Assembly: GCF_006345815.1 (NCBI RefSeq)
Contig: NZ_VCIG01000038.1
Coordinates: 558,001-622,000 of the forward strand
Reading direction: 5' to 3'
DNA: 64,000 nt
Source of the DNA: Ochrobactrum sp. CGA5
GTDB lineage: Bacteria; Pseudomonadota; Alphaproteobacteria; Rhizobiales; Rhizobiaceae
Every line of letters begins with the position of its first letter. Position 1 is the first letter of the stretch. Positions 53,499 to 54,436 of this stretch are shown here, in pieces. Made by a program: the position numbers and the translations under genes. Below the pieces are notes generated by a model, which saw nothing but the letters and a program-made list of their open reading frames with translations, made no database searches and was not told where the DNA came from.

Positions 53499-54089
53499 CT
53501 AGCGCAACTCGCGGCGCATGGCCTGCGTCATCAACGCGGCTTCGTGAAATCCTGACAGGATCAGTTTCAGCTTCCCGGGATAGTGGCAGGCATCACCTAT
53601 AGCGTAGACCTTCGGACCTGACGTTCTGAAGGTCTCCGGGCTTACAGCCAGCATATTGCCCGTCTTAATTAAGGAAAGCTCGGCCAGTGGGTCGGGACGG
53701 ATTACTTGTCCATTGCCGGAGAACGCACCAAGACCCGATGCAATTACCACTGCACGCGCTTTGAACTTGTCGCCATCGCGACTATTAACAGCCACGCCTT
53801 TTCCATCGTTGGTGATGCTGACTGCAATCTTATTGAAATAGAAAACCGGTTTATATCGCTCGATCTGCTTGAGAAGCCGTTCGACAAGTTCCTTGCCCAT
53901 GATTTCAGGAAATCCAGGCACATCGTAAATCGGCTTATCAGCATAGAGCATTGCACACTGCCCACCGGGCCGGTCACATGCATCGATGAGATGACACCTG
54001 AAACCGAACAGTCCAAGCTGGAAAACGGAAAAGAGTGCGACAGGCCCACATCCGATAACGGCAATATCGTTCTGCAGTTCAGTACCCAT
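53499..54089 (-). CDS. Short FAD-only thioredoxin-reductase-like flavoprotein (ferredoxin-NADP reductase type without NADPH domain)
   Basis: The 196-residue protein matches the FAD domain of TrxR-like ferredoxin-NADP reductases. The FAD motif VIGCGPVALFS is at residues 11-21, PGGQC at 41-45, and the C-terminal AIGDACHYPGKLKLILSGFHEAALM completes the FAD site. Full-length relatives are about 330-350 residues; the missing about 140 lie between GLGAFSG (about 119-125) and the SPETF segment (about 148), exactly where the NADPH module (GGGDSA) should be. The frame is uninterrupted, so it is not a frameshift. It lies 24 bp after the ferredoxin gene on the same strand, so the two may work together, with ferredoxin as electron donor or acceptor. 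Whether the missing part is a real family feature is open. Confidence 0.85.
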   Translation of the reverse strand: MGTELQNDIAVIGCGPVALFSVFQLGLFGFRCHLIDACDRPGGQCAMLYADKPIYDVPGFPEIMGKELVERLLKQIERYKPVFYFNKIAVSITNDGKGVAVNSRDGDKFKARAVVIASGLGAFSGNGQVIRPDPLAELSLIKTGNMLAVSPETFRTSGPKVYAIGDACHYPGKLKLILSGFHEAALMTQAMRRELR

Positions 54090-54112
54090 CGCCTCTCCAT
54101 TTCTTCGGAAAT

Positions 54113-54436
54113 TTAGTTCTGACGTTCAGGCACCCGCACGATGAGGCCTTCAAGATCATCCGACACGCGAATCTGGCACGAGAGCCGCGAAGTGGGTCGA
54201 ACTTCATAAGCAAAATCCAGCATATCCTCTTCCATCGCGTCCGGACCACCGACAGTGTCGGTCCAGTCTTCATCAACATAGACATGGCAAGTTGCGCAGG
54301 CGCAGGCACCGCCACATTCAGCATCAATACCGGGGATGCCGTTGCGAATGGCTGCTTCCATTACGCTTGACCCATTTTCGGCTTCGACCTCTGTACGTTC
54401 TGCACCATCAGCTGACACGAATACGATCTTCGTCAT
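54113..54436 (-). CDS. [2Fe-2S] ferredoxin (adrenodoxin/putidaredoxin type)
   Basis: The 107-residue protein binds one [2Fe-2S] cluster through Cys41, Cys47, Cys50 and Cys87, the C-x5-C-x2-C-x36-C spacing of adrenodoxin-type ferredoxins. It has the ECGGACACATCHV block. Such ferredoxins serve in Fe-S assembly (Fdx of the Isc system) or pass electrons to oxygenases. No isc genes are beside it. It is followed within 24 bp by the short flavoprotein gene, so it probably pairs with it. I use ATG at 54436; an ATG 6 codons upstream is also in frame. Confidence 0.94.
   Translation of the reverse strand: MTKIVFVSADGAERTEVEAENGSSVMEAAIRNGIPGIDAECGGACACATCHVYVDEDWTDTVGGPDAMEEDMLDFAYEVRPTSRLSCQIRVSDDLEGLIVRVPERQN

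Follow-up and report, generated by a model that had tools for sequence, protein, structure and literature searches.

Reductases built from a flavin half and a nicotinamide half are usually treated as a single unit. The closest described relatives of the protein reported here are the ferredoxin-NADP+ reductases (FNRs) of the thioredoxin reductase (TrxR) type, RpFNR of R. palustris (PDB 5ygq) and BsFNR of B. subtilis (3lzw). The accessible sections of PMC9137726 place the flavin adenine dinucleotide (FAD) domain of RpFNR at residues 2-122 and 255-344 and its nicotinamide adenine dinucleotide phosphate (NADP) domain at residues 127-250, and describe a contact between D56 and the flavin N3; those of PMC10526003 describe a si-face tyrosine in BsFNR, and those of PMC10294844 further features of TrxR-like FNRs. 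Ferredoxin-dependent flavin thioredoxin reductases (FFTRs) run on ferredoxin and keep a second domain, which carries a CxxC motif (excerpts of PMC12796991), while TTHA0370 of Thermus thermophilus, a 'thioredoxin reductase-related protein' of 180 residues (2cvj), is a single TrxR-type FAD domain. In a stretch of 64,000 nucleotides from Ochrobactrum sp. CGA5 (contig NZ_VCIG01000038.1, positions 558,001 to 622,000; hereafter the window) a ferredoxin gene is followed by a gene for a protein of 196 amino acids that corresponds to the FAD domain of a TrxR-type FNR and nothing else. Across ten sampled genera the nicotinamide half of this reductase has been lost and the flavin half kept and altered beside its presumed electron partners, which offers natural material for asking what role is left to a lone TrxR-type FAD domain without an NADPH site of its own. 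The pair and the parts of the short protein lie as follows.

54113..54436, minus strand: adrenodoxin/putidaredoxin-type [2Fe-2S] ferredoxin, 107 amino acids, first gene of the pair (Fer2, 1.8e-12)
53499..54089, minus strand: FAD-domain-only relative of TrxR-type ferredoxin-NADP+ reductase, 196 amino acids
53721..54089, minus strand: N-terminal segment of the FAD domain, residues 1-123, equivalent to RpFNR 2-122 (alignments; boundaries from the PMC9137726 sections)
54036..54053, minus strand: first FAD motif GCGPVA, residues 13-18, of the form GxGxxA where full-length relatives have GxGxxG (sequence)
53691..53720, minus strand: junction, residues 124-133, in place of an NADP domain of about 125 residues (alignments)
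53502..53690, minus strand: C-terminal segment of the FAD domain, residues 134-196, stopping where the re-face tail of RpFNR starts (alignment, model)
53571..53597, minus strand: GD block GDACHYPGK, residues 165-173, where full-length relatives have GDINxYPGK (alignments)

Alignment and structural comparison both place a TrxR-like FAD domain in the window protein, whose fold and FAD binding are predicted. The glycine motif GCGPVA, an ATG-like block (ASGLG) and the GD block are all present; as a preliminary description of this DNA had stated, the FAD motifs are kept and the frame is unbroken. That description had also reported a missing NADPH module of about 140 residues. The absence stands, with the gap falling on the NADP domain in alignments with full-length relatives and with RpFNR, but the missing part measures about 125 residues; the domain is absent from all 31 short rows aligned. 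The C-terminal FAD-side block, likewise said to be kept, is there as residues 134-196 but without the re-face tail. The region equivalent to RpFNR 319-344, with its re-face Tyr328, is called missing because the model of the window protein aligns to 5ygq residues 3-319 only. Among the 31 short rows the position of this tail tyrosine holds Y in 16, F in 2, D in 1 and a gap in 12. The adrenodoxin-type identity of the neighbouring ferredoxin was borne out, its best solved relative being 3hui, itself a ferredoxin (162 bits), and its ligand spacing reads C41-x5-C47-x2-C50-x36-C87; the gap between the two genes is 23 bp rather than the 24 bp first given.

The short protein shares with RpFNR and BsFNR the FAD domain and the residues Y49 and D56, the si-face tyrosine and the aspartate at the isoalloxazine, which are present in 31/31 short and 29/29 full-length rows; Y49 is equated with BsFNR Tyr50 by position alone. 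RpFNR Ile300 aligns with the conserved I177 of the window protein. It differs from the two enzymes in lacking the NADP domain and, in this genus, the re-face tail, and in altered residues of the glycine motif and after the GD pair. From the FFTRs it differs in having no second redox-CxxC domain, its cysteines standing at positions 14, 32, 38, 45 and 168 with no CxxC among them. The window protein is outside the TrxR-type FNRs by their defining NADP domain, and is a derived FAD-only variant. It consists, like TTHA0370, with which it shares 23% identity, of one TrxR-type FAD domain about 180-200 residues long. An FAD-domain-sized TrxR-like structure was thus already known, and the short form varies a known design; literature searches of open-licence PMC papers returned no description of an FNR without its NADPH domain. 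Database names on the relatives, such as thioredoxin reductase (NADPH) and NAD(P)/FAD-dependent oxidoreductase, are misleading. Many of the best 120 relatives listed are about 195-206 or 219-238 amino acids long, with alignments that span almost all of the query, so the short form is not a chance product.

Within the genus the flavoprotein is present in 25 of 35 genomes. The preliminary description had allowed for a deletion peculiar to this strain; a recent local deletion is ruled out, as every one of the 24 intact copies is short, and a full-length query found none of the 35 genomes to hold a complete full-length FNR, its other matches being relatives of about 25-35% identity. All 24 also lie beside the ferredoxin gene, which itself occurs in 35/35 genomes. 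The one broken copy (G305, loci L054 and L055) is in two pieces in a genome 69% complete whose DUF922 match is likewise split, so that an assembly error is possible. Another incomplete genome (G318) has a 41-residue N-terminal piece of the full-length type in a 64-amino-acid frame on a contig of 5.9 kb (L222, contig C35, 3687-3881), followed by unrelated sequence; it may be a piece of a gene or contamination. At seven ferredoxin loci examined among the ten genomes lacking the flavoprotein, DUF922 directly follows the ferredoxin, and nothing beyond a chance-level flavoprotein match (E 0.81, elsewhere in L067) was found there. A gene fission and a second, full-length FNR in the same genome were considered and rejected: the full-length query gave no NADPH-part-only match in the window genome at E 1e-5, and no second full-length FNR was found in that genome or in the 25 short-form genomes of the family sample.

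In that sample of 394 genomes, 154 have a match, made up of 25 short forms and 129 others, and 240 have neither form. For the weaker matches 'full-length' means that the genome's match was not among the whole-length short-form hits; in two genomes whose match has a short open frame (G517 and G619), reading the sequence showed the NADPH domain to be there. Ten genus codes have short forms (g1, g133, g134, g138, g150, g174, g177, g194, g203 and g219), and in each of the 25 genomes a single match reaches E 1e-20 or better. Named members that carry the short form include Brucella anthropi, B. tritici, B. grignonensis, Shinella daejeonensis, Shinella pollutisoli, Mycoplana ramosa, Chelativorans sp. 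ZYF759 and Rhizobium setariae. Outside g203, 21/21 short-form genomes, six of them of the window's genus, keep both the short length and the ferredoxin neighbour that the preliminary description had singled out. Its idea of a two-protein pair holds to this extent and proved too narrow, for in four Rhizobium-labelled genomes the short gene stands behind fpr. No further short form appeared among the matches listed from an order sample of 297 genomes (165 with a match) or a class sample of 385 (222 with a match).

The NADPH domain was most likely lost in place, as indicated by the ferredoxin and the outer neighbours that full-length loci share with the short ones. A homologous ferredoxin, 45-75% identical to that of the window, accompanies the full-length gene in 34/34 loci (29/29 from the order search and 5/5 from the family search), with varying spacing and side, and DUF922 or folP lies beside all five family-level loci (L111-L115). 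In genus g133 one locus encodes a full-length FNR (G506) and another a short form (G439), with upstream neighbours identical in kind. A first tree of 60 FAD-domain rows put the short forms on one side of a branch with support of 98/92. A second, outgroup-rooted tree of 43 rows did not recover a single short-form clade, one protein (P0167) falling nearer the full-length forms; holding the short forms as one clade was not rejected in this tree (p-AU, the approximately unbiased test, 0.52). Our reading of the trees is one old loss, with P0167 uncertain. This protein of 223 amino acids is a short form with the full-length-like residues FELGL and GDVN, and possibly lost its NADPH domain separately and more recently. 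An independent recent loss in g133 is rejected, G439 and G506 as a clade giving p-AU 0.013.

In the genus the median pairwise ratio of non-synonymous to synonymous substitution rates (dN/dS) is 0.111 for the flavoprotein (52 usable of 276 pairs), far below 1, against 0.034 for the ferredoxin, 0.052 for DUF922 and 0.080 for folP. Comparison of 31 short with 29 full-length rows shows E24 replaced by Q in 30/31 and E51 by D in 31/31 short rows. The third glycine of the first motif, G in 29/29 full-length rows, is Ala in 24/31; the Ile after the GD pair is replaced in all 31, and the next Asn is Cys in 26. Y49, D56, G165, D166 and K173 are unchanged in every short row. Both the low dN/dS and these common substitutions, within the FAD motifs or adjoining them, speak against decay. 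The median net charge of the shared core is -11 in the full-length and -4 in the short proteins; that of the window protein is +4, and its ferredoxin carries -14.

Fpr is the intact reductase of these genomes and would belong to the same chain from NADPH to ferredoxin. It is built of other domain families (FAD_binding_6 and NAD_binding_1; Brucella ovis FPR, 6rr3 and 6rra) and is unrelated to the short protein. Fpr is on the list of B. ovis flavoproteins in the part of PMC9045290 available, and the Fpr of the window genome (L124) matches 6rr3 with 547 bits, its gene lying between those for quinolinate phosphoribosyltransferase and an Fe/Mn superoxide dismutase. At a threshold of E 1e-40 or better, Fpr is present in 25/25 short-form, 84/129 full-length (45 lack it) and 232/240 neither-form genomes of the family sample. 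The difference between short and full-length genomes gives p 1.5e-4 in Fisher's test, uncorrected for phylogeny. In this sample, then, genomes without the NADPH half, or without the gene altogether, nearly always carry Fpr.

In g203 the short gene lies directly behind fpr in 4/4 short-form genomes, away from the ferredoxin, and in one of them (L106) the stop codon of fpr overlaps the ATG that follows (TGATG). In 7/7 genomes of this genus the best-matching ferredoxin locus retains DUF922 and folP without a flavoprotein gene, a comparison that leaves aside further, weaker ferredoxins in three of them. Genes for a GntR/FCD-type regulator, a CobF-like methylase and a CobG-like NIR_SIR protein lie downstream in 4/4 fpr-linked loci, the last two names resting on inspection and position, and this constant cobalamin-type neighbourhood may hint at the acceptor. 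In these four fpr-linked loci (L144, L145, L160 and L161) the flavoprotein lies between fpr and the cobalamin-type genes every time. A sulfite/nitrite reductase was considered as a constant neighbour of the fpr-linked form and rejected. A 556-amino-acid protein of this type, which has NIR_SIR domains and falls below all NCBIfam cut-offs, is encoded upstream with DUF934 in only two of the four loci, and one of the other two has a phosphoesterase gene there. With the ferredoxin as its neighbour elsewhere and fpr in g203, the short gene is tied to one or other of two presumed members of a single chain.

We propose that the short protein is the FAD half of a TrxR-type FNR that takes electrons from the adjacent [2Fe-2S] ferredoxin, reduced by Fpr, and passes them to an acceptor, acting as a small relay of its own within the Fpr-ferredoxin chain, a reading to which we give a probability of about one half. 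Fpr would oxidise NADPH and keep the ferredoxin reduced, the ferredoxin would hand electrons to the FAD of the short protein (in this direction, we infer), and this FAD would pass them on. By taking over NADPH oxidation Fpr may have freed the FNR to shed its NADPH half, and the remaining FAD, with its re-face presumably more exposed, could serve as a switch between one-electron and two-electron transfer. As acceptor, the siroheme-type (NIR_SIR) enzymes whose genes lie near the fpr-linked copies are no more than candidates. Gene linkage and co-occurrence make it likely that the short protein belongs in this chain. Several observations weigh against the proposal. RpFNR reacts poorly with the Fe2S2 ferredoxin RPA3956 in the sections of PMC9137726 available, so the neighbouring ferredoxin may have been a poor partner even for the ancestor. 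The ferredoxin is kept in the 10/35 genus genomes that have no flavoprotein, neither form occurs in 240/394 family genomes, one copy (G305) is broken, and the flavoprotein evolves faster than the three neighbours compared. The candidate sulfite/nitrite reductase is upstream in just 2/4 fpr-linked loci, and the genome counts are not independent of phylogeny.

It is possible, if on the unlikely side, that the protein stands for a new class of FAD carrier, made from an FNR by loss of its NADPH half once Fpr had taken over that step, and serving as a flavodoxin-like relay between the Fpr/ferredoxin chain and a dedicated acceptor, in Rhizobium perhaps one of the NIR_SIR enzymes. A non-catalytic role, in which the protein docks on ferredoxin or Fpr and tunes electron flow with a purely structural FAD, seems to us unlikely. 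Such a subunit would fit with a tail lost in the genus and an NADPH domain lost from all short forms, with a less acidic core beside an acidic ferredoxin and with the absence of the gene from ten genus genomes, but the invariance of Y49 and D56 in all short rows goes beyond what a scaffold should require.

Direct transfer from the FAD of Fpr to that of the short protein, bypassing ferredoxin and making the two a split NADPH-dependent enzyme, is quite doubtful. The position directly behind fpr in g203, with overlapping codons in L106, and the presence of Fpr in every short-form genome speak for it. Outside g203, however, the neighbour is the ferredoxin in 21/21 short-form genomes and fpr was not found in those loci, and Fpr is about as common (232/240) where neither form exists.

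A decaying remnant on its way to complete loss is improbable. The broken G305 copy, the many genomes of genus and family with neither form and the faster evolution than the neighbours are what decay would produce, but not a median dN/dS of 0.11, shared derived residues, an independent position behind fpr and the occurrence of short forms in ten genus codes, on a tree that would allow a single old origin. An electron drain, in which flavin reduced by the ferredoxin would react with oxygen or quinone to guard the chain from over-reduction, is very improbable: tail and NADPH domain are both gone in the genus, RpFNR reduces quinones (sections of PMC9137726) and fpr of the window genome adjoins a superoxide dismutase gene, but several lineages retain the tail tyrosine (Y in 16/31 short rows) and the loci read, which were not searched systematically for such signs, hold no other sign of oxygen stress.

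The remaining genes around the pair in the window are these.

52802..53488, plus strand: DUF922 gene, convergent with the pair; relatives have the same neighbour in this position
51847..52695, minus strand: folP (dihydropteroate synthase), synteny anchor (Pterin_bind 8.9e-80)
55067..59743, plus strand: gene for a protein of 1558 amino acids, divergent from the pair

A homologue of the 1558-amino-acid gene adjoins 8/12 clustered loci, short and full-length alike, the other four being the fpr-linked ones. In three relatives a gene of about 120-131 amino acids for an Hpt-domain protein precedes the ferredoxin (L138:5764-6123, L139 and L140), assigned by an Hpt score of 4.6e-09 in the first and by clustering in the other two.

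Viral carriage was considered and set aside, as none of 35 pattern-matched stretches encodes a relative. Matches in 40 plasmid records included three that looked gap-free (H3, H4 and H10), each of them part of an annotated protein (331, 279 and 325 amino acids) whose gene adjoins one for a 'ferredoxin family protein'. On two plasmids, from Aminobacter and Agrobacterium (L220 and L221), genes for an NAD(P)/FAD oxidoreductase, a ferredoxin, a glutamine synthetase family protein and a P450 stand in a row. In the window the open frame of folB (51483-51947) shares up to about 100 bases with that of folP, so folB probably starts further in.
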